From Natronosalvus caseinilyticus (lineage in GTDB: Archaea; Halobacteriota; Halobacteria; Halobacteriales; Natrialbaceae), in assembly GCF_017357105.1 (NCBI RefSeq), contig NZ_CP071596.1:186001-250000 (forward strand): a DNA stretch of 64,000 nucleotides, in the 5' to 3' direction. The notes beneath the pieces are model-generated. The model made no database searches, was not told the origin of the DNA, and saw nothing but the letters and a program-made list of their open reading frames with translations. The position numbers were made by a program, and so were the translations under genes. Numbering within the stretch: the stretch's first letter is position 1; the number at the start of each line of letters is the position of its first letter. Below are positions 4,418 to 37,893 of this stretch, one piece after another.

Positions 4418-4818
4418 GCGCGCACCAACATACGCGACCCACAAAATCGTTGCCCGTACTGTCCGTTACCGAGGCCATCGGTTCTGTTGGCATTCAGGCG
4501 ACAGTATTTCTTCGCATTAAAATTCGATGTAGTAGATGCCCCCGCACATACATATAGAGGCACATGTACATACTGGCCGTCTTGGATAGGCGGTAACGGC
4601 CGAGTTCAACTCGACCGGCACGTGACCTCTGATCCGACTGACGCGGTTGCCCTAACGCCGGACAGCCCGATCACGTGCATCCCACCCGGAGCGCACCGTG
4701 GCGGCAAACAGCCGCCCGATGCCTTCTTACCCATCCTACACCCAGCCACCACCCCGACCGGTTTACCCCTGCGGGTCGGCCGTCGTCGCCGTGATTCGAA
4801 CACATGGGTCTTCGACAG
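4418..4818. other. Gap of 400 bp without a convincing gene
   Basis: No open frame here looks like protein. The minus strand has a TATA-like CTATATGTA around 4547-4556 that could serve the DUF4268 gene. The sequence CTGTTGGCATT at 4484-4494 is the reverse complement of the core of a motif repeated upstream of other genes in the element. The far end (about 4758-4815), just after the next gene's stop, contains GATTCGAA flanked by partly pairing arms and looks faintly like a tRNA T-arm, but does not fold as a tRNA. Confidence 0.5.
4484..4494 (-). repeat. Copy of the element motif, core TGCCAACAG (partial)
   Basis: On the minus strand reads AATGCCAACAG, matching 11 bases of the GACAATRCCAACAG motif. 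It lies about 67 bp upstream of the start of the DUF4268 gene. Confidence 0.4.
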
Positions 4819-5970
4819 TTAGATTTCTTCGACCGTTTCGGTCTCCACTTCTTTCACGAGCTTCGGATGGAAGTGTTCGATCAAATGGACGAGCGTTTCC
4901 GTTGCATCCGCCAACGTTGAATCGATCACGGCCTCGTCGTATCGGTGACTCTCCAGCGGGAGTTCACCGTGTACTGCACCGATGAGCCGGTTCCGAACCT
5001 CGAATCTCTCCAATTCATCCACGTGCTCGGACAGGACCGTCCGGATCTGCTGTTGAGTTTCGTCGTCAGCGCCTCGAACGGTGATCTGGAACTTGAGCGT
5101 CGCTTCCTCCTTCGGGCGGGGTTTGAAGATGTAGAGTACGGAGTCGGGATGCTCTGGATGGTTCGAGGTGGCCTGAATCACACGACTGGCGCTATCGCTG
5201 GCGATCTCGTCAGGGTGGTTGACCTGGAGTGTGTCTTTCACCCGGTCATAGGTGCGATCTCGAACAGCGCGAATGAAAGCCGAGTAGTCGACAGACCCAT
5301 CATCCGGTTGGATGCGCGACAGCGGATAGTCGACAACAGTAGACCCGACTAAGACCGAATCAGGAGATGTCCTCTCCCCTTCGTTCGGGAAGTCAAAGCA
5401 CTGGGCTTCAACACACTGTACGTATAACCCTTGTTCCAGTAGATACCGCGCGTTGGTCTCCGTACGGCTGGTGATGTCCTCAGCAAGGATGACCATTCGT
5501 TGGTGGGTGTTCATCGAACTGCGATTGGCCCCTCCGAGCGCAACCTTGTGAGCGTCGGCAAGCGTTTCCTCGACCACCGCTGCGTCACCAACGTTCCACT
5601 CTCCGGTTCGTACGTTCGCTTTATATTCGTCGTAGATCTCCTCCAGGTCGCTGTACTTGTAGCGACTGAGCGATTGGGCGTAGTTTTGGGGCTGGCTCAG
5701 GATCGTCTCCTCACTCGCGCTACCGGAGCCGCTTTTCCCCTTCTTAAGTTCGATGACGACGACGTTTCCCCACTGGTCAAGCGCGAGTAAGTCTGGGAGT
5801 CCAGTACTGAGTCGATATTGCCGGCCGAAGATCAGTAGCGGCTCGTCAAGAATGACTTCGGGATTGGCGTGGAGCCACGATTCGAGTATGTATTCGGCAT
5901 CGACAGTATGACGGTCCAGCTTCTGCGTCCGGGACGGCATCTCGGTCCGGTCAAACTCAAAAACGCGCAT
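4819..5970 (-). CDS. NucS/DUF91-like PD-(D/E)XK endonuclease
   Basis: 383 residues. The N-terminal domain has the NucS-like nuclease signature: HANPEVILDEPLLIFGRQ, then GLPDLLALD (Asp60) and NVVVIELKKGK (Glu74, Lys76), so all core acidic and lysine residues are present. The C-terminal 200 residues are of unknown fold (LKFQITVRGADDETQQQI). It is the third nuclease-like gene in 3.5 kb after the hsd genes, which fits a defence island. The exact substrate cannot be deduced. The gene has its own leader; upstream lies the divergent PadR-type regulator. Confidence 0.75.
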   Translation of the reverse strand: MRVFEFDRTEMPSRTQKLDRHTVDAEYILESWLHANPEVILDEPLLIFGRQYRLSTGLPDLLALDQWGNVVVIELKKGKSGSGSASEETILSQPQNYAQSLSRYKYSDLEEIYDEYKANVRTGEWNVGDAAVVEETLADAHKVALGGANRSSMNTHQRMVILAEDITSRTETNARYLLEQGLYVQCVEAQCFDFPNEGERTSPDSVLVGSTVVDYPLSRIQPDDGSVDYSAFIRAVRDRTYDRVKDTLQVNHPDEIASDSASRVIQATSNHPEHPDSVLYIFKPRPKEEATLKFQITVRGADDETQQQIRTVLSEHVDELERFEVRNRLIGAVHGELPLESHRYDEAVIDSTLADATETLVHLIEHFHPKLVKEVETETVEEI

Positions 5971-6043
5971 GCTACCCCGGTTGCGATGACTACCACTTAG
6001 TTTTATCTTACCGGTTTAAATTGTTCATCGGTTAGAATTTTCG

Positions 6044-6052
6044 TTTATATAT
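6044..6052 (+). promoter_or_regulatory. TATA box of the wHTH regulator gene
   Basis: TTTATATAT centred about 36 bp before the ATG at 6084. Archaeal transcription starts about 25 bp after the TATA box, giving a leader of only about 10 bases or none. Confidence 0.55.
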
Positions 6053-6083
6053 CTGTTGATAGCCGGTCTGGAAAATCTAATAG

Positions 6084-6323
6084 ATGAGTTTGATCGGTGA
6101 GACGAAGCTCGGTATTCTGCTCCGGATTCGTGAAGAACCAGCGCACGGATACGATATGGCGAAGGAGTTGGAGATCTCGTCTGGGTACGTCTATCAGCAC
6201 CTACAGGAGTTACAAGACGAAGGGATGATCGAGGTCCACGAGGACGAAACTGAAGGGCGACAGCGCACTACTTACCAGCTAACCGAAAACGGGGAACTAC
6301 TGTTGGAAGCCCTCGGAGAATAG
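6084..6323 (+). CDS. Small winged-helix (PadR/MarR-like) transcription regulator
   Basis: 79 residues, essentially a bare DNA-binding domain: KLGILLRIREEPAHGYDMAKELEISSG (helix-turn-helix), then YVYQHLQELQDEGMIEV (recognition helix) and a beta-wing ending in RTTYQLTENGELLLEAL, the pattern of PadR-type regulators. No effector domain is present. It sits alone between minus-strand genes and is the only clear DNA-binding regulator of this type in the left half of the element, so it may control the element or the defence genes; this is inference. Confidence 0.8.
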   Translation: MSLIGETKLGILLRIREEPAHGYDMAKELEISSGYVYQHLQELQDEGMIEVHEDETEGRQRTTYQLTENGELLLEALGE

Positions 6324-6324
6324 A

Positions 6325-6542
6325 TCACAACCGTTCATACAAGATGCGAGCCATCTTTGCTTCGAACGGGAGAAGGATACCTAACGAATCAACATCGTCG
6401 TCATCGTATGAGAGCTGAACGGCGTCGGTCACGTGGTCGTGCATCGCCCACAGCTGCTCGGTCTCAACCTCTCGAAGGTCGTCAGGTGTCTCATCCCCCA
6501 GATGTTCGTGACCACTTCGTACTCGCGTTCTGTGAGTTTCAT
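6325..6542 (-). pseudogene. Frameshifted small gene (72-codon protein)
   Basis: The ATG at 6542 begins MKLTEREYEVVTNIWG, after which the frame loses sense. Reading one base back at the G5 run near 6491-6495 continues as DETPDDLREVETEQLWAMHD and on to FEAKMARILYERL and a stop at 6325. Both parts look like genuine acidic haloarchaeal protein, and no start codon exists for the second part, so this is one gene with an apparent missing G. It follows the upstream gene by one base (same operon). Function unknown. Either a true inactivation or a homopolymer undercall. Confidence 0.7.
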
Positions 6543-6543
6543 G

Positions 6544-6774
6544 TTACTCTTCAAGTGAGGGGCGAAGATCGCGCCAACGGAAGTGGTCTGTCCCACCACC
6601 GTCAAACTCGACCGCGAATAGGTACGAGTCACGTACATCACCGGTAACCGTGCCTGCGTCGTCCTCGATCAGTTTGACAACTTCGCCCGTTCGGTCGTGA
6701 TACTGCTCGAAGTCGGGATCACTTTTGTCGGGGATGTCGATGCGGACTCGATCTCCGACCTCGAATCGTCTCAT
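6544..6774 (-). CDS. Small SH3-like protein (DUF8139 type)
   Basis: 76 residues from ATG at 6774 (an ATG four codons earlier is also possible). MRRFEVGDRVRIDIPD followed by HDRTGEVVKLIEDDAG and VEFDGGGTDHFRWRDLRP is the signature of a small haloarchaeal SH3-barrel family found in viruses and plasmids. Its role is unknown; such barrels usually bind nucleic acid or protein. Followed after one base by the frameshifted gene. Confidence 0.7.
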   Translation of the reverse strand: MRRFEVGDRVRIDIPDKSDPDFEQYHDRTGEVVKLIEDDAGTVTGDVRDSYLFAVEFDGGGTDHFRWRDLRPSLEE

Positions 6775-6807
6775 TGACGAGAACATTAGTGGGCTGGCTC
6801 GTGATCG

Positions 6808-7035
6808 TTACGGTCCAGTCCACCGGTTACCCATCTCACGGACGCGGTCGTCTACCTTGTCTCGATGCTCGACTTCAGTCAGCGATACCCGATCTACCAT
6901 CCGATCGAAGCCACATCGGTCATTACGCTCGTAGAAGACTTCCAGCCCGACGCTTCCTCCTTCGTCCCGTAGACGAGTGAAGATCCGCAGGCCGGGAACG
7001 TCGCCGTGTCGTGTTTCCTGAACGTCAGCATCCAT
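6808..7035 (-). CDS. Hypothetical protein, end of the small-protein operon
   Basis: 75 residues from ATG at 7035 (MDADVQETRHGDVPGLR). The start lies inside the last codons of the DUF6908 gene with an 11-bp overlap, the style of this operon. Predicted beta strands (LRIFTRLRDEG, VGLEVFYERND) but no family recognised. Confidence 0.55.
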   Translation of the reverse strand: MDADVQETRHGDVPGLRIFTRLRDEGGSVGLEVFYERNDRCGFDRMVDRVSLTEVEHRDKVDDRVREMGNRWTGP

Positions 7036-7387
7036 CTGGCATCTCCTTCGCCGCATCCACGAAGCCCTGCTCCTGCAGATTCTCGCTCCACTGCGTCACG
7101 AAGTCCTCGACGTCGACCCCGGCGGGATTGTGCTGGTGAACCCCCGGATGCTGAGTGTATCGTACTGGCCTCCACTCCCCGTTATCGATGTGAAACACGA
7201 TCTCGGGGTCGCACATCAGGTCGCCCCGCTGGACGTAGTGATGCGCAACGCTGAGACGATCTGGCCCGATCTTCTCGATGGTCAGATCCTCGAAGCCCGC
7301 GACTTCAACCGTGTAGCTCTCGTTGACCGTCATCTCCTCGATGGACTCGATACCGAGCAAGACGAGGATCTCCTTAGCGGCCTTCAT
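7025..7387 (-). CDS. DUF6908 domain protein
   Basis: 120 residues: KEILVLLGIESIEEMTV, FEDLTIEKIGPDRLSVAHHY, RGDLMCDPEIVFHIDN, YTQHPGVHQ. This matches the haloarchaeal mobile-element family DUF6908 by memory of its DLMCDPE(I/V)xF core. Function unknown. ATGA overlap with the preceding small gene shows coupling. Confidence 0.7.
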   Translation of the reverse strand: MKAAKEILVLLGIESIEEMTVNESYTVEVAGFEDLTIEKIGPDRLSVAHHYVQRGDLMCDPEIVFHIDNGEWRPVRYTQHPGVHQHNPAGVDVEDFVTQWSENLQEQGFVDAAKEMPDGC

Positions 7388-7545
7388 CGATCGTCGTCCT
7401 CCAGAATCCGCTCGAAGTTCTCCTCGGTCACGTCGATAGCCCGCTCGATGTACTCCTCTTGGTCAGTGACTCGCCCGAACCACTCAAACGCTGGATACCA
7501 GCGCCTAACCCACCACCTCATCAGGCGAAAGTATCGATCAAGCAT
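7384..7545 (-). CDS. 53-residue hypothetical protein
   Basis: MLDRYFRLMRWWVRRWYPAF, then EWFGRVTDQEEYIERAIDVT and an acidic tail. Start overlaps the DUF6166 gene by 8 bp and the stop overlaps DUF6908 as ATGA, which supports it as a real coupled gene. Amphipathic, Trp/Arg-rich N-terminus; role unknown. Confidence 0.65.
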   Translation of the reverse strand: MLDRYFRLMRWWVRRWYPAFEWFGRVTDQEEYIERAIDVTEENFERILEDDDR

Positions 7546-7939
7546 CGGCACTCACCTCCTCGTACCAGGCGTCGAGATCGGCTGCCCGAAGTGCCCATCC
7601 CTTCTCAGGCAGCTCGGCTACGACATCTCGCTTGAACCGCTGGTAGTGATCACAGGCGGCTTCATCATCCACCGCATGCGCCAGCAACGCAATCGCGAGT
7701 TGTGCGGGACCGCTTCCCCCATAACCCCACTCGATCTCACTTCTCGAAGCCGGCAGGAGATCGTACCTGGAGTTGAGTGGATCGCCGTCGACGCTGACCG
7801 TACACTTTTCGCCTACCGGTGCAGTCGGGTCTCGATAGCCGCGGTAGACTATTTCCGCCGAACCGGACGTCACTGAAGGTCGTGGAGTGGTGTTCTGGGT
7901 GCTCGAACCCTGGGTTTCAGCTCCGACATCGCTGCTCAT
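7538..7939 (-). CDS. DUF6166 domain protein
   Basis: 133 residues. After a low-complexity N-terminus come YRGYRDPTAPVGEKCTV, RYDLLPASRSEIEWGYGGSG, and PAQLAIALLAHAVDD, the conserved core of DUF6166, a family common in plasmids and proviruses of haloarchaea and bacteria. Function is not known. Coupled on both sides by overlaps. Confidence 0.8.
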   Translation of the reverse strand: MSSDVGAETQGSSTQNTTPRPSVTSGSAEIVYRGYRDPTAPVGEKCTVSVDGDPLNSRYDLLPASRSEIEWGYGGSGPAQLAIALLAHAVDDEAACDHYQRFKRDVVAELPEKGWALRAADLDAWYEEVSADA

Positions 7940-18677: not shown

Positions 18678-19877
18678 TTACCAGATCTGTTCGGCGGCGT
18701 CGTTACGGGTTTCAGCGTCGGAGTGAAGATATTTCATCGTCGTCGTGACGCTCTTGTGACGGAGCTGTTCTTTCGCGTGGTGTGGGCCGATGTGGTTCGC
18801 CCAGTAGGTCGCAACCCCGTGACGGATTGAGTACCAGGTAATCTCCTTGTGGTCTGGGATAGGAAGGTCGCCCTGCTCAACGAGGCGGCTCAATAGGTAG
18901 TTACACGATTTCGAACTGTATGAGCTTCCCTGCTTTGTGAGCCACAGTTCGTCCCGACCGTTGTACTTGTCGTAGGTTGCTCGCTCCTCTAACCATCGTT
19001 TGAGGACTCTTGACGTGCGCTTCTTGATTGAACAGTTCCAGTGCGCCTCGTTCTTCGTGGACTCGTCCTTTGGTATGTTGAGTTCGTTGTTCTCAAGGTT
19101 GACCCAGTCCGTGGTGGCTCGCCCCACTTCGATGGGTCGGAGTCCAGTATCCAGCGTCACAGCGATTATCGATGGCTCCTTCCACGAGTTCGCCTGTTCG
19201 AAGTGTTCGGGACCGACCTCCGACTTGGGTACGCCGAGGCGCTGTGAGACGTGTGTCTTCAACTGATCACGCTCCTCAACGGACATGTTGCTATGATAGC
19301 TTTTGACCGAGTTGTATTCCAACGCCGCCTGATAGAGCGGCTTGAACGCGGTTCTGCGGAGATAATCCCGTTCATCACCGGTCGCCTGACTCAGCTCGGG
19401 TTTTGGCTCCCAGTCGTAGTCGGTTCCGTGGATATGGTTGTGGTACTTGAACAGTCGCTGAACAGTCTTCCCGTAGTGAAGCACACTGGAATCAGCCATA
19501 CCGTCTGAGCGATTGAGGAGACGGATGAAGCGGTCAGCGTGGTTCGGTGTGAAGTCTGTCGTGTAGGCGTCTTCGTCCTCCCAGAGCCATCGGAAGACGA
19601 TTTCAAGCTTGTAGTGTGTCGACTGAAGGGTGCTCTCTGCGAGGCCCTGACCTTTCTCTGGGTGCTTGCCGTATGTGGCGAGCCACGAGAGAAGATCTTT
19701 CTTGAAGTCGCGGTAGTCGTCGACCATATTGAGCCCGTAGTTTTCGAGATCCTCGCGTGTGCGTTCACTGGCAAGGGGAAAGTCGAACTCTACTTGTTCT
19801 GGAGCTGGGGGTAGACCATCCCGCGGAGTGCCATCCCCGGCGGGGAGGTTGTCGAGTGGATCGGGCTGGTTGGTCAT
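18678..19877 (-). CDS. Tyrosine recombinase (integrase)
   Basis: 399 residues from ATG at 19877 (MTNQPDPLDNLPAG); an ATG 17 codons upstream is possible but its codons look untypical. An N-terminal SAM-like arm (FRWLWEDEDAYTTDFTPNHA) precedes the catalytic domain with box I Arg in TLDTGLRPIEVGR, box II WYSIRHGVATYWAN and the nucleophile Tyr in LRHKSVTTTMKYLH. In box II the usual first His of HxxR is Tyr. The gene is next to, and points away from, the tRNA-Thr 3' end, as expected for an enzyme that inserts the element there. Confidence 0.92.
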   Translation of the reverse strand: MTNQPDPLDNLPAGDGTPRDGLPPAPEQVEFDFPLASERTREDLENYGLNMVDDYRDFKKDLLSWLATYGKHPEKGQGLAESTLQSTHYKLEIVFRWLWEDEDAYTTDFTPNHADRFIRLLNRSDGMADSSVLHYGKTVQRLFKYHNHIHGTDYDWEPKPELSQATGDERDYLRRTAFKPLYQAALEYNSVKSYHSNMSVEERDQLKTHVSQRLGVPKSEVGPEHFEQANSWKEPSIIAVTLDTGLRPIEVGRATTDWVNLENNELNIPKDESTKNEAHWNCSIKKRTSRVLKRWLEERATYDKYNGRDELWLTKQGSSYSSKSCNYLLSRLVEQGDLPIPDHKEITWYSIRHGVATYWANHIGPHHAKEQLRHKSVTTTMKYLHSDAETRNDAAEQIW

Positions 19878-20032
19878 CGGCGCACACCCCGTTTTGTTTG
19901 TGTGCCATGACACTTTCTCGAATCGCAAGACTGCGCGGCTGTCGGGTTGTAGTTTTTTCGGACGTTCTTGGACATAGTTCGTCTCTCCTGAGAAGGGCGA
20001 AATCAGGTCAGAGAGACGCTAAGGCCGCTGAA

Positions 20033-20103
20033 GCCTAGGCCGGGATTTGAACCCGGGCTCTCGTCCTTACCAAGGACGCGCTTTACCGCTAAGCTACCCA
20101 GGC
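20033..20103 (-). tRNA. tRNA-Thr (GGT)
   Basis: 71 bases on the minus strand fold fully: acceptor GCCTGGG/CCTAGGC (one G-U), D-arm GCTT/AAGC, anticodon stem CGTCC/GGACG with loop TTGGTAA (anticodon GGT, threonine), T-arm CCGGG/CCCGG with TTCAAAT. CCA is not encoded. The element begins at its 3' end. Confidence 0.95.
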
Positions 20104-33271: not shown

Positions 33272-34840
33272 GTGCGACTCGTCCAGCTATCGGTTCCGGA
33301 GGGAAAACTCGAGACCGTCCGCGAAGCCCTCGACGGGGACGACCTTCCCTACGTCGTCACGGACGAGACCAGCGGCCGCGGCCACGAGGCCCTCGTCTAC
33401 ATCCCGCTGCCGACGGGGATGGTCGAATCGACGCTCGATACGCTGCGCGCCCGCGGCATCGGCGAGGACGCCTACACGGTCGTCGTCGACGCCGAGACGG
33501 TCATCTCCGAGGAATTCGACGCGCTCCAGGACGAGAACGACGCCGGCGACGTCGAGTCCGAGCGCATCTCGAGACAGGAACTGCGGACCGAGGCCGCCGA
33601 GTTGACGCCACCACTCGACGTGTTCGTCGTGATGACGGTCGTCAGCACCATCGTCGCCACGGCGGGACTCCTCCTCGACTCGGCAGCCGTCGTCGTCGGC
33701 TCGATGGTGATCGCGCCGCTGATCGGGCCCGCCCTGGGTGCGAGCGTCGGCTCCGTGATCAACGACGAGGAGTTGCTCGCCGAGAGCGTCAAGTACCAAC
33801 TTCTCGGAGTCATCCTGGCAATCGTCGCGGCGGCGGTCTTCGCCTGGCTCGTCAGGCTGGGGAATATCGTACCGCCGGGGCTCGCCATCAGTGGCGTCGG
33901 CGAGATTAGAGAGCGCCTCACGCCCGACTTGCTCTCGCTCGCCGTCGCGCTCGGCGCCGGCGTCGCCGGCGTGGTGAGCATAACGACGGGCATCTCCGTG
34001 GCCCTCGTCGGCGTTATGATCGCCGCCGCCCTCATTCCGCCGGCAGCCGCGGCCGGCATCGCCATCGCCTGGGGTGAACCGATGGCGGCCGTCGGCTCGA
34101 CCGTCCTCGTCCTCGTGAACGTCCTCTCGGTGAACCTCGCCGGGCTCCTCACCCTCTGGTACGCCGGCTACCGACCCGAACGGCTCTTCGACCGGGGCCT
34201 CGCCGAGCGCCGCGTTCGCAGACAGGTCGTCGGCCTGGTCGTCGTCGTCCTCATCTTCTCGACGTTCCTGGGCGGAATCACCTACTCGAACTTCACCACG
34301 GCCACGTTCGAGGACGACGCCCGCACCGAAACCGAGGCGTTGCTCGAGCAAGAGCAGTACGCGGCCTACGAACTCATCGCCCTCGAGATTGAACTCACCG
34401 ACGACTTCCCCTTCCGCGGGCCCGAACGGGTGATCGTCACGATTGGCGGCCCGCCACAACAGGCTCCCGTTGACATCGCCGCCGACCTCGAGGAACGCAT
34501 CTCGGCACAGACCGACGACCCCGTCGCGGTCGACGTTCGGTACGTCGACGTTATCTCCCTCGGTCCGCAAAACGACAGCGACGAGGAGACGGCCGACGGT
34601 GACGAGACGGACCTGGGTGAAGACGGAACGACGTCGCTCCAGCAACCAAACTCGATTCAGCAGTCGGCGTCGATCCAGCAACCCGTGTTGCTCGAGACGC
34701 AAGAGCGAACGCGAGAGAGGACGTGGGAAGGGAAAGCCAGTCAGCGATCTCGAGACGGCAACTCCGGTTCGTATCCGATAGCGTCGACGGCGGCCTCGAG
34801 CACCGCGTCGACGTTCTCGCCGGTCTCGACGCTCATGTAG
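33272..34840 (+). CDS. DUF389 family membrane protein
   Basis: 522 residues from GTG at 33272. N-terminal cytoplasmic ferredoxin-like part (VQLSVPEGKLETVREALDGD), then about six membrane helices with the DUF389 signature DSAAVVVGSMVIAPLIGPAL and ISVALVGVMIAAALIPPAAA, and a soluble C-terminal part. Function in haloarchaea unknown. The last 100 bp run over the end of the NOG1-type gene on the opposite strand; the last 60 residues are low-complexity (SLQQPNSIQQSASIQQ). Confidence 0.85.
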   Translation: MRLVQLSVPEGKLETVREALDGDDLPYVVTDETSGRGHEALVYIPLPTGMVESTLDTLRARGIGEDAYTVVVDAETVISEEFDALQDENDAGDVESERISRQELRTEAAELTPPLDVFVVMTVVSTIVATAGLLLDSAAVVVGSMVIAPLIGPALGASVGSVINDEELLAESVKYQLLGVILAIVAAAVFAWLVRLGNIVPPGLAISGVGEIRERLTPDLLSLAVALGAGVAGVVSITTGISVALVGVMIAAALIPPAAAAGIAIAWGEPMAAVGSTVLVLVNVLSVNLAGLLTLWYAGYRPERLFDRGLAERRVRRQVVGLVVVVLIFSTFLGGITYSNFTTATFEDDARTETEALLEQEQYAAYELIALEIELTDDFPFRGPERVIVTIGGPPQQAPVDIAADLEERISAQTDDPVAVDVRYVDVISLGPQNDSDEETADGDETDLGEDGTTSLQQPNSIQQSASIQQPVLLETQERTRERTWEGKASQRSRDGNSGSYPIASTAASSTASTFSPVSTLM

Positions 34841-35709
34841 AAGTCGGCCTCGACGTCGCGTGAGCGGTCGGCCTTGTTACAGACCGTGAACACCGGCAGG
34901 TCCGCGAACTGGTCGGCGATGGCGTCGCGCAACTCGAGCTGGTCCGCGAGCGGATAACCACACTCCTCGCTGGCGTCGACGAAGACGAGGACGCAGTCGC
35001 CCAGGTGCTCGAGGGCGCTGACGGCCTGGGACTCGATCTCGTTTCGCTCCTGTGGCGGCCGGTCGAGCAGCCCCGGCGTGTCGACGATCTGGTGGCGAAT
35101 GTGATCGCTGGTGAAGTGACCCAGACCGATGCCTCTCGTCGTGAACGGGTAGGCGGCGGTCTCTCCGCGGGCGTTGGTGACGGCGTTGACGAACGAGGAT
35201 TTGCCGACGTTGGGGTAGCCGGCGACGACGATGGTCGGCTCCTCCGGGTTGATCTCGGGCAGGTCCCGCAGGTCGTTGCGCGAGTCGTTGATGTAGCGCA
35301 GTTCGTCGTCGACCTGCTCGACAATGTCCGCCAGACGGGCGAAGGCCTGTTTCCGGTACTTCCTGGCCGTGTCGACGTCGGTCTTGCGCAGCTTCGGCTG
35401 GTACTCCTGGTGGATCTCGCGGGTCTTTCGGCTGGCCCACATCACCTCCGAGAGGCTCTGGCGGAGGCGGTCGACGTCGACGATGGCGTCGGCCAGCTCC
35501 TCGTAGAACGGGTGGACGTCGTACTCGAAGTCCGGCCAGGAGGTGACGACGTTCTCGAGGTTGTCCGAGAGGATGTTCGCCGCCGTCTGGAGCATCGACT
35601 GCTGGGCGTCGAGCCCCTTCTGGGCCCGACCGGCCCGCGAGGCCCGGGAGAACGCCTTGTCGATCAGCTCTTCCGACGTGGGCGTGGTCGGAAGGTCTTC
35701 GAAAATCAT
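34741..35709 (-). CDS. NOG1-type GTPase
   Basis: 322 residues from ATG at 35709 (MIFEDLPTTPTSEELIDKAF). N-terminal helical NOG1_N region, then GTPase motifs VAGYPNVGKSS (G1), TTRGI (G2), VDTPGLLDRP (G3), and VCNKADR (G4). Archaeal homologues of eukaryotic Nog1 act in 60S-type ribosome assembly. The 3' end overlaps the convergent DUF389 gene by 100 bp. Confidence 0.93.
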   Translation of the reverse strand: MIFEDLPTTPTSEELIDKAFSRASRAGRAQKGLDAQQSMLQTAANILSDNLENVVTSWPDFEYDVHPFYEELADAIVDVDRLRQSLSEVMWASRKTREIHQEYQPKLRKTDVDTARKYRKQAFARLADIVEQVDDELRYINDSRNDLRDLPEINPEEPTIVVAGYPNVGKSSFVNAVTNARGETAAYPFTTRGIGLGHFTSDHIRHQIVDTPGLLDRPPQERNEIESQAVSALEHLGDCVLVFVDASEECGYPLADQLELRDAIADQFADLPVFTVCNKADRSRDVEADFYMSVETGENVDAVLEAAVDAIGYEPELPSRDR

Positions 35710-35858
35710 ACTCACACTAGCGGCAGGGAGCTTAAAAGGTCGTTCGATACGCGACGGGTCGCTCCCGGGATCAAAACGACGCGCTCTCGAACGGTTCACC
35801 CCCACCGCCGTCACCGCGGGCCTCGAGTTCGCGGATCAACAGTCGGTTCCAGCGGACG

Positions 35859-35866
35859 ATATATGC
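35859..35866 (+). promoter_or_regulatory. TATA box of the DUF5518 gene
   Basis: GATATATG centred 28 bp before the ATG at 35890, which fits a leaderless transcript and supports that start over the ATG at 35863. Confidence 0.55.
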
Positions 35867-35889
35867 GCCTCGAGCCCCTTTCTCCGGGT

Positions 35890-36261
35890 ATGACAGACTG
35901 GCGTGCGACCGGAATCGGCTTCCTCACGATCGTCGTCCTGAGCGTCTTCGGCGTCGTCGCCCCCGGGCTCGGCCAGCTGACCGCCGGCCTGATCGGCGGC
36001 TTCGTCGCCGGCTACCTGGCTGGCGGCGGCCTCGGCTCCGGGTTCTGGCACGGCCTCCTTGCGGGCTCGCTCGGCGGCATCATCGCCGGCGTGATCCTCA
36101 CGCTCGTTGTCGCCGTCGCGGGCTTCGCACTGGGCCCCGCCGGAGCCGCTATCTCGAGCGTGGTCGGCGCGGGAATATTCCTCGTCGCCGTCGTCCTCGC
36201 GGTCGTCATGGCGCTCGAGAGCGCCGTCGCTGGGGCACTTGGGGCCGCGATTAACCCCTGA
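35890..36261 (+). CDS. DUF5518 membrane protein
   Basis: 123 residues with three to four membrane helices rich in Gly and Ala (LGQLTAGLIGGFVAGYLAGG, GLLAGSLGGIIAGVILTLVV, SVVGAGIFLVAVVLAVVMAL). This Gly-zipper layout is DUF5518, common in haloarchaea. Function unknown. Confidence 0.8.
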   Translation: MTDWRATGIGFLTIVVLSVFGVVAPGLGQLTAGLIGGFVAGYLAGGGLGSGFWHGLLAGSLGGIIAGVILTLVVAVAGFALGPAGAAISSVVGAGIFLVAVVLAVVMALESAVAGALGAAINP

Positions 36262-36345: not shown

Positions 36346-37203
36346 TCAGGCCTCGAGCCACGGCTCGGCACACCAGCCCCAGATGTTGTCCGCCTCGAAG
36401 TGCAGCCCCCACCAGGTGTAGCCGTCGGCGGACTCGGGGCCGTTCATGATCCGGCCGGCGGACCCCTCGGGCATCGTCGCGACGATGGTCGAATCGGTAC
36501 CGGGCTGTTCGCGAGCGTTGAGGTTGGCCGTGGTGTAGACGGTCTGGTCCATCTCGAATTCACCGTCGCCACCACCGCCGCCACCGCCGTCGCCAACGAA
36601 GTCCATCAGTCGCGACCCCGACCAGTCGGGCCCTGGACAGGCCGTCGCGTTCGAACTCGAGCAGTAACTATTGGTCGGTGCGTGCCGATGTTCGATGATC
36701 CCGCCGCTGGCGTTACACGGGGCCGACATCGACGTGTAGTAGTTCTTCGGGATGTCGTAGGTCTCCGCGAGGTAGTCGATGATGGCCGCCGAGCGCTGGT
36801 ACATCGTGTCCGAGATGTACCCCTGTGATTCGGTCCACTCGTGTTCGATTCCAATCGCGCTCGAGTTGAAGCCGCTGGCGTGCCAGGCGACGTTCGACTC
36901 GTCGACCATCTTCGTCGTGTGCCCGTCCGAGTTGCGGATCACGTAGTGGGCGGAGACGTTCGCGTCCGGGTTCTGGAACCAGCTGATCGCGCCCGAGTAC
37001 GAGCCGACCGTCGTGTGCACGACGATCCAGTCGATGTCGTTCACGCCGCGGTCCGCCCAGGAGTAGTTGCTCGAGTCGGCCGCGACCCAGCGATCGACCG
37101 GCTCTTCGGCCGCGAGTGCCGACGTGCTGGTCGCCGCGAGCGATGCCACGCCGCCGACCGAGAGGCCGGCCGCTTTCAGGAGTGTTCGCCTGTTTTCATC
37201 CAT
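36346..37203 (-). CDS. Tat-exported N-acetylmuramoyl-L-alanine amidase with SH3 domain
   Basis: 285 residues. NRRTLLKAAGLSVGGVASLA is a twin-arginine signal. Residues about 55-200 are Amidase_2/PGRP: DWIVVHTTVGSY (His63), IGIEHEWTESQGY, IIEHRHAPTNSYC (His172 region), ATACPGPDW (Cys189), the zinc ligands of peptide-cleaving amidases. A Gly-rich linker then leads to an SH3-like domain (TTANLNAREQPGTDSTIVAT). Archaea lack peptidoglycan, so the target is probably bacterial walls outside the cell. An AT-rich promoter with TATTTAC at about 37228-37236 lies 29 bp before the ATG. Confidence 0.9.
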   Translation of the reverse strand: MDENRRTLLKAAGLSVGGVASLAATSTSALAAEEPVDRWVAADSSNYSWADRGVNDIDWIVVHTTVGSYSGAISWFQNPDANVSAHYVIRNSDGHTTKMVDESNVAWHASGFNSSAIGIEHEWTESQGYISDTMYQRSAAIIDYLAETYDIPKNYYTSMSAPCNASGGIIEHRHAPTNSYCSSSNATACPGPDWSGSRLMDFVGDGGGGGGGDGEFEMDQTVYTTANLNAREQPGTDSTIVATMPEGSAGRIMNGPESADGYTWWGLHFEADNIWGWCAEPWLEA

Positions 37204-37227: not shown

Positions 37228-37236
37228 AGTAAATAA
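37228..37236 (-). promoter_or_regulatory. TATA box of the amidase gene
   Basis: Minus strand ATTATTTAC about 29 bp before the ATG at 37203, within an AT-rich island, consistent with a leaderless transcript. Confidence 0.45.
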
Positions 37237-37389
37237 TTTTTGTCTGATACGCTATAGGAATTTTGGACGTATGTCTGATATCGAGTGGCTGTCGGGGTCG
37301 AAGGACGCTGCCGTCGCACGAGGACGGTACCGCTGGCCGATCACCTACCATTATACGACGGCGCACGTACTGTCCGCCAGCGAAAACGC

Positions 37390-37893
37390 ATGTTCGACGA
37401 GATCATGGAGAAATTCGAGGGGTCGCCGAGCCAGCAGGCGGTCATCCGCCTCCTCCTGGAGCGGGGCTTCTCGGTCAACGACGAGGGCCGGGTCGTCTCG
37501 GGCGGAATCGAGATCCCCAACACGGGCATCGCTCGCGAAATCGACGTCGACCGGCGCGTCGTCGACTCGACGACGGACGTCATCCTGGAGGACCCCGAGT
37601 TGCGACGGATCTTCCAGAACATCTCGCAGGTGCCGAGCCTGATGGATCTGGCGCCCGTCCTCGACCTAACGGTGCTCTCGATCGAGGTCGCGGACGCCGA
37701 ACAGGAAGGCATCGTCGCCTCGGTGACGGGGATTCTGGCCGACCACGGCATCTCGATCCGCCAGACGATCAGCGAGGACCCGGAGTTCACCGACGAACCC
37801 CGCCTCCACCTCGTCACCGACGAGGACCTGCCGGGTGAGGTCATCACCGACATCCGCACGCTGTCGTTCGTGCGTTCGATTGAGTTGCAGTAG
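37390..37893 (+). CDS. ACT-domain regulator
   Basis: 167 residues from ATG at 37390. An N-terminal winged-helix-like part (GSPSQQAVIRLLLERGFSVN, IPNTGIAREIDVDRRVV) precedes a C-terminal ACT domain (DLTVLSIEVADAEQEGIVAS, VTGILADHGISIRQ). It probably binds an amino acid and controls transcription. Divergent from the amidase gene. Confidence 0.85.
   Translation: MFDEIMEKFEGSPSQQAVIRLLLERGFSVNDEGRVVSGGIEIPNTGIAREIDVDRRVVDSTTDVILEDPELRRIFQNISQVPSLMDLAPVLDLTVLSIEVADAEQEGIVASVTGILADHGISIRQTISEDPEFTDEPRLHLVTDEDLPGEVITDIRTLSFVRSIELQ

Follow-up and report, generated by a model that had tools for sequence, protein, structure and literature searches.

A predicted Tat-exported zinc amidase of Natronosalvus caseinilyticus probably belongs to a haloarchaeal murein-degrading kit built around a shared SH3 module

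Peptidoglycan hydrolases were identified in 175 of 3,706 archaea (~5%) by Strock et al, 2025 (PMC12352652), under a definition that requires one Pfam catalytic domain and one Pfam cell wall-binding domain; the work is summarised in a primer (PMC12356512). According to this report, the haloarchaeal enzymes Woldo (M23) and Danwoldo (GH73), both carrying PG_binding_1, kill a bacterium, and the GH25 muramidase of Aciduliprofundum boonei, which is cited there, was also reported to kill bacteria. Haloferax volcanii served as the host for Woldo. Because of this survey, a peptidoglycan hydrolase in an archaeon is no longer new. An earlier, sequence-only reading of the locus described here had presented a complete wall-cleaving enzyme in a peptidoglycan-free archaeon as a surprise and had named competing or prey bacteria as the likely target. 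The surprise was already explained in print, whereas the core of that reading, an intact, selected and export signal-bearing gene of the peptidoglycan amidase type in a genome with no transpeptidase match, stood.

The window, that is, the whole stretch of DNA that was analysed, spans 64,000 nucleotides of N. caseinilyticus. The amidase gene and its parts are as follows.

36346..37203, minus strand: gene for a Tat-type secreted amidase (Amidase_2 and SH3) of 285 aa (ORF, Pfam, dN/dS)
36349..36561, minus strand: putative SH3 wall-binding module, residues 215-285 (family profile, sub-threshold Pfam)
36628..37041, minus strand: Amidase_2 catalytic domain, residues 55-192 (Pfam, column counts, model and fold match)
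36637-36639, minus strand: zinc ligand C189 (alignment columns)
36688-36690, minus strand: zinc ligand H172 (alignment columns)
36844-36846, minus strand: E120 (alignment columns)
37015-37017, minus strand: zinc ligand H63 (alignment columns)
37108..37203, minus strand: predicted Tat-type signal peptide, residues 1-32 (read from sequence)
37230..37241, minus strand: TATA-like element AAAAATTATTTA, 26 nt upstream of the ATG (conservation in the genus)

The ORF starts with ATG, and its product begins with the Tat-type signal that had been proposed, in which NRRTLLK, with its twin arginines, precedes a hydrophobic segment and ALAA. An alignment of 13 rows (A1) shows R5 and R6 to be almost invariant, and the signal region gave a weak match to the NCBIfam TAT model TIGR02811, under the model cut-off (E 0.005). 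By inspection the signal contains no lipobox, and the protein should therefore be released. The catalytic domain matched Amidase_2 (PF01510) with 93.3 bits (E 2e-26; cut-off 26 bits), and the claimed His/His/Cys zinc set is in place as H63, H172 and C189. A Gly-rich linker separates this domain from the SH3 module. The latter scored below the Pfam cut-off for SH3_3 (PF08239; 19.8 bits against 27, E 9e-4), but a profile of 13 haloarchaeal modules (A2), the one in the window included, recovered it at E 1.3e-34, and the best PDB match of this profile is the SH3b domain of an autolytic lysozyme (4krt, E 3.4e-7). Based on these profile comparisons, we regard the module as real despite its sub-cut-off Pfam score, in agreement with the SH3-like binding domain noted earlier. 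A Golvesin_C match in the same protein was taken as chance (18.1 bits; cut-off 31.6). The AT-rich promoter of the sequence-only reading corresponds to AAAAATTATTTA, which is nearly unchanged in three other genomes of the genus, being conserved in G112 and G114 and present with changes in G117. The protein has a pI of 4.35 and the gene a GC3 of 0.874, compared with 0.859-0.886 in four neighbouring genes; the gene is therefore haloadapted and resident. Amidase_2 was found at a single place in the two-contig, 4.24-Mb genome, on the 4.0-Mb contig.

In an alignment of 44 proteins from haloarchaea and bacteria, H63, H172 and E120 never vary, and position 189 is occupied by cysteine in 12 and by aspartate in 32. 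Cysteine, as in T7 lysozyme, and aspartate, as in AmpD, are both established ligands in this fold. Two residues before the third ligand the window protein has T187; the aligned proteins carry H (31), R (6), K (4) or T (3) at this position, and the equivalent residue in T7 lysozyme and AmpD is a lysine. The AlphaFold model (mean pLDDT 82.1) adopts the AmpD/T7-lysozyme fold. Its catalytic part superposed on LysCS, an endolysin amidase (Z 17.6, rmsd 2.5, 145 residues), and on AmpD (Z 17.4, rmsd 2.5, 151 residues), effectively a tie, and the model gave a Z of 12.9 with T7 lysozyme. By profile, the nearest solved proteins were AmpD (E 5.6e-17), AmpDh2 (2.1e-13) and AmiD (1e-9). Structure comparison also placed animal recognition proteins in this fold; the members of that group known to have no activity lack the full ligand set. 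The dN/dS values of the gene were 0.106 against G112, 0.141 against G114 (261 codons) and 0.304 against G117, low values which indicate that purifying selection keeps the protein. In the G114 copy (L190), the signal-peptide part lies in a different frame from the enzyme, which points either to a sequencing error or to a broken gene.

The SH3 profile, applied to up to 15 candidates per genome, matched in at least 46 of 391 haloarchaeal genomes, about one in eight, at E <=1e-5. From the loci examined, 176 module-bearing ORFs were reduced to 76 by removing copies with a common 60-residue stretch; the 100 ORFs dropped include near-identical Natrialba-type proteins, and the set of 76 covers part of the places found by the profile. 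The module is combined with several catalytic domains in this set. The commonest architectures were AMI-SH3 (AMI, amidase; 25), SH3-M23 (19), AMI-SH3-SH3 (10) and SLT-SH3 (6). Two proteins each showed abhydrolase-SH3-SH3-AMI-SH3-SH3, SLT-SH3-M23, SH3-SleB-like, SH3-AMI, GH73-SH3 and SH3-SH3, and one each AMI-SH3x4-GH73, AMI-SH3-SH3-GH73, GH73-SH3-SH3-M23 and GH18-SH3-SH3. At E 1e-4, Pfam recognised Amidase_2 in 41 proteins, M23 in 22, SLT in 8, Glucosaminidase in 5 and GH18 in 1, and 71 of the 76 have a recognised murein-cutting domain from the first four families. The remaining five comprise two SleB-like proteins, assigned by eye, one chitinase-like protein and two with no catalytic domain. 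In the SleB-like pair (L036:5397-6155 and L039:4976-5749), the C-terminal domain fused to SH3 has no Pfam match; we take it by eye to resemble SleB-type wall hydrolases and excluded it from the 71. The chitinase-type protein (L237:3121-4797) combines GH18 with two copies of the module, and the two proteins that have no catalytic domain (L235:4811-5509 and L238:4681-5370) consist of a twin-arginine motif and two modules. In two proteins of 855 aa (L046:6513-9080 and L048:6528-9095), Amidase_2 and four SH3 modules are combined with an alpha/beta hydrolase (DUF900), and these proteins are conceivable as wall-and-membrane attackers. Pfam SH3_3 was recognised in just 14 of the 76 at E 5e-6, the equivalent of its 27-bit cut-off by our own estimated conversion. 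Because the module falls below the cut-off in all but ~14, surveys that rely on Pfam would be prone to overlook it.

The sequence-only reading had overlooked a second hydrolase of the same genome, as well as the shuffled kit and the three-gene runs found elsewhere. This second enzyme is a Tat-type SH3-M23 protein (L032:5256-6032, ~G000:C1 3,199,255-3,200,031; M23 95.9 bits). Its M23 domain matched NF052336, an NCBIfam model named 'peptidoglycan hydrolase', with 191.5 bits (E 2.3e-56), and this strong E value with a score below the cut-off of 500 points to a homologous catalytic domain in a different protein. We read the label of the model, HSB100310, as a locus of Halogranum salarium B-1, probably that of Woldo. 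The GH73 proteins matched NF052335 (best E 3.9e-78, in L166), whose label HSB129560 we take to be probably Danwoldo; judged by the same comparison, these also appear to have a homologous catalytic domain in a different protein.

Across genomes, the two enzyme types occur together. Amidase_2 was present in 19 of the 24 genomes with a strong M23 match (>85 bits) and in 31 of the 367 others (Fisher p 9e-15, kinship ignored); the 85-bit threshold was chosen after the gap had become visible in the 391 genomes, the lower M23 group (up to ~75 bits, making up the majority of the 113 genomes with M23) was excluded as it looks like a different family, and the association with all 113 would be weaker. 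The lower-scoring group consists of ~350-600 aa frames in many haloarchaeal genomes and does not carry the SH3 module (e.g., G063:C1:1729542-1729826). Glucosaminidase and SLT each had 0 matches in the N. caseinilyticus genome, which thus has no glycan-cutting partner of either family. With M55 also at 0, the idea of a full peptidoglycan-use set in this genome found no support. The penicillin-binding transpeptidase model PF00905 likewise had 0 matches in this genome, whereas it matched 10 of 14 control genomes. There is therefore no murein of the organism's own to remodel.

In other haloarchaea, the genes for these enzymes lie side by side, at loci examined because the match lists placed them close together. 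The G330 run (L179) encodes, on one strand, SLT-SH3 (4640-5371), SH3-M23 (5409-6146) and SH3-Amidase_2 (6164-7027), with gaps of 37 and 17 nt. The G280 run (L180) encodes, also on one strand, GH73-SH3 (7077-7886), SH3-M23 (6285-7037) and SH3-Amidase_2 (5406-6269), with gaps of 39 and 15 nt. The SLT-SH3/SH3-M23 pair was found in G376 and in G394, and it is present on plasmid NZ_CP096020.1 of Halocatena salina, which probably corresponds to the G394 contig. An SH3-less amidase precedes SH3-M23 in G410, and the amidase and M23 genes of G367 are convergent. In total, the amidase and a strong M23 lie within 2 kb of each other in four of the 19 genomes having both (G330, G280, G367 and G410). The three enzymes of such a run would be expected to take the wall apart by cleaving the glycan, the cross-link and the amide bond. 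Beside the G280 run we also identified an M55 D-aminopeptidase (306 bits; L180:8420-9265) and an Orn/DAP/Arg-group PLP decarboxylase (L180:9517-10830), the latter of which may simply be a lysine biosynthesis gene.

Based on the domains, the conserved residues, the fold prediction, purifying selection, the partner gene and kinship, we consider it likely that the window gene encodes a secreted, haloadapted, Tat-exported zinc amidase of a haloarchaeal murein-degrading kit, which probably lyses neighbouring bacteria. The folded amidase would exit through Tat with removal of its signal, and the SH3 module would dock onto bacterial murein. With H63, H172 and C189 coordinating the zinc and E120 as the probable general base, the Amidase_2 domain would cleave the MurNAc-L-Ala amide bond and free the peptide stems from the glycan. 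The Tat/SH3 enzyme with the M23 domain in the same genome would cut the peptide cross-links, and the pair would thus attack two different bond types in the wall. Lysis of neighbouring halophilic bacteria, in competition or predation, and nutrient release would be the likely benefit. Secretion, murein binding, activity, joint action and killing by the window amidase are thus expectations that we infer from these features. Several points weigh against the murein amidase reading: the sub-cut-off SH3 score, the GH18-fused relative, T187 in place of the classic lysine, the lack of a glycan-cutting or M55 partner in the genome, the G114 frameshift and the absence of the gene from G115.

The enzyme might instead be a scavenger with no role in killing, which obtains carbon, nitrogen and amino acids by digesting the wall remains of dead bacteria; we hold this to be possible, if short of probable. 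As would be expected from scavenging, M55 D-aminopeptidase was present in 13 of the 50 Amidase_2-bearing genomes, compared with 17 of the 341 others (p 1.3e-5, kinship ignored, so that the association takes no account of ancestry). M55 and the PLP decarboxylase also adjoin the G280 run, and the data fit feeding on murein in some lineages. In the N. caseinilyticus genome, however, the profile search found no M55. Scavenging is left open by Strock et al, 2025 (PMC12352652), although Woldo and Danwoldo kill live cells in that report.

A substrate other than murein, such as chitin-like material or, in the archaeon itself, the capsule or the envelope glycoprotein, is unlikely. It would accord with an organism that has no transpeptidase and hence no murein of its own, with the SH3 relative that carries GH18 (L237) and with the two relatives that have SH3 only (L235 and L238); the GH18 fusion, taken with the sub-Pfam score, suggests that murein may not be the sole ligand of the module, and chitin-like glycans may be bound as well. 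Nevertheless, Amidase_2, M23, SLT or Glucosaminidase is present in the 71 proteins counted above, and murein is the substrate common to these four chemistries. A role on the archaeon's own envelope is further disfavoured by the patchy presence of the enzyme and by its clean absence from G115.

The neighbours of the amidase gene in the window are as follows.

34741..35814, minus strand: NOG1-type GTPase (Pfam)
35863..36261, plus strand: DUF5518 membrane protein (Pfam, synteny)
37285..37893, plus strand: ACT-domain protein, divergent to the amidase gene (weak Pfam, 23.2 bits against 27; synteny)

In G112, G114 and G117, the amidase gene is likewise found between the DUF5518 and ACT-domain genes and beside the NOG1-type GTPase. 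It lies several kilobases away from these neighbours in G111 and G113. Outside the genus, NOG1 adjoins the amidase in five genomes belonging to two genera (L014-L018). The same-genus genome G115 has no amidase at this place, and its DUF5518 and ACT genes are separated by 190 bp, a clean presence/absence. Because the gene is missing from G115 and the G114 copy is frameshifted in its signal part, the amidase is dispensable. Elsewhere in the window, positions 1-20103 have a low GC content (~46-60%, compared with ~65% beyond 20 kb). This stretch ends at a tRNA-Thr (20032-20103) with a phage-type integrase alongside (18678-19928), contains HsdM (802-2364) and candidate defence genes of the PDC-S11 and PDC-S02 types, and looks like an integrated defence island.

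The whole-protein query found matches in 33 of 125 genomes of the family, and the Amidase_2 model in 50 of 391 haloarchaeal genomes and 20 of 86 genera. An unrooted tree built from 115 amidase domains has one branch, with 100/100 support, that separates 57 archaeal from 58 bacterial domains; the bacterial rows were picked for similarity to the query and the tree has no outgroup, so that it does not show which way, or how often, genes moved in old transfers. This split and the patchy spread point to an old haloarchaeal gene family that was lost or gained in a patchy manner. The nearest bacterial kin are from actinomycetes, Thermoactinomycetaceae and Myxococcota. Short haloarchaeal Amidase_2 proteins of ~200 aa with no SH3 (L121-L127, L135 and L141) form a separate part of the tree, and proteins similar to these are found on plasmids of Halorussus, Haladaptatus and Halocatena.

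That the gene is a captured virus lysin, or came recently from bacteria, and is functionless for the archaeon is highly improbable: PHROGs lysis families do match (e.g., phrog_1794 amidase, E 3.5e-15) and bacterial relatives reach 45-50% identity over the amidase domain, but matches were confined to 5 of 50,697 phage records with <=40% of the query covered and to just two weak loci among viral contigs, the SH3 module had no relative there, the unrooted tree parts archaeal from bacterial domains on its single 100/100 branch, and GC3 and acidity are host-like in a gene under purifying selection at a locus common to the genus. An endolysin as the recent source was rejected on the five partial phage matches, the two weak viral-contig matches and the lack of any for SH3, and recent bacterial transfer on the lack of nesting in the unrooted tree of similarity-chosen rows. 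Phage endolysins with the same SH3, which were sought for target prediction, were not found among these records. Unlike a phage endolysin, the window protein has no full-length relatives among the phage records and no proviral setting, and its locus is chromosomal and common to the genus.

More tentatively, it is possible, though less likely than not, that haloarchaea run a dedicated extracellular murein-digesting system, in which the SH3 module is shuffled over amidase, M23 endopeptidase, lytic transglycosylase and glucosaminidase, some members are arranged in three-gene units, and the released stems feed into D-amino-acid/diaminopimelate breakdown. If so, such archaea would be bacterivores equipped with a kit made for digestion, and not simply owners of single acquired toxins, and the three-gene transcription unit of some genomes would cut every main type of wall bond.

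Compared with the solved proteins, the window protein shares the layout of its zinc site with AmpD, AmpDh2 and AmiD, its closest relatives by profile and, for AmpD, also by fold. These three have no SH3 module, unlike the window protein, and serve the bacteria's own murein recycling or turnover. The AmpD equivalog model NF008758 gave 28.2 bits, far below its cut-off of 143. Amidase_2 proteins of Jiangella, Phytoactinopolyspora, Nonomuraea and Melghirimyces show ~41-50% identity over the amidase domain; these actinomycete and Thermoactinomycetaceae proteins are mostly 350-700 aa long with an internal amidase and lie on the opposite side of the tree branch, and the haloarchaeal SH3 module is absent from all 58 bacterial rows.

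When the definition of Strock et al, 2025 (PMC12352652) is applied, the Amidase_2 domain scores over its cut-off and the genome of the producer has no PF00905 match, as expected of a murein-free organism, but the binding domain is recognised only with the family-specific profile, since SH3_3 reaches 19.8 of 27 bits; the passage that gives the definition states no score threshold, and Pfam's own cut-off was applied here. As described in that report, Woldo and Danwoldo of Halogranum salarium B-1 resemble the window enzyme in being haloarchaeal, in their Tat signal and in the pairing of a catalytic with a wall-binding domain, and they are two enzymes of one genome with a common binding domain, as are the window amidase and its SH3-M23 partner. 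They differ in combining M23 and GH73 with PG_binding_1, whereas the window protein, known from its sequence alone, combines Amidase_2 with the haloarchaeal SH3 module. The A. boonei muramidase, as cited there, is likewise an archaeal anti-wall enzyme, of a different catalytic family and acting on a different bond. Among the papers retrieved on archaeal peptidoglycan hydrolases, haloarchaeal amidases, D-aminopeptidase and Natronosalvus, we found no description of the haloarchaeal SH3 family or of the gene runs; the words 'operon' and 'adjacent' are absent from the main text of PMC12352652, whose supplementary tables may list some of the proteins. The kit would extend bacterium-killing by archaea beyond the few chimeric enzymes tested so far, to a common, shuffled set in at least 46 of the 391 haloarchaeal genomes sampled. 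The three-gene runs and the presence/absence at one locus provide directly testable material on targets, feeding and joint action, and salt-active amidases could be of practical antibacterial interest. Judged by these comparisons, the principle is known, and what appears to be new is a different binding module, a catalytic class outside the two assayed enzymes and the arrangement of such genes in runs.
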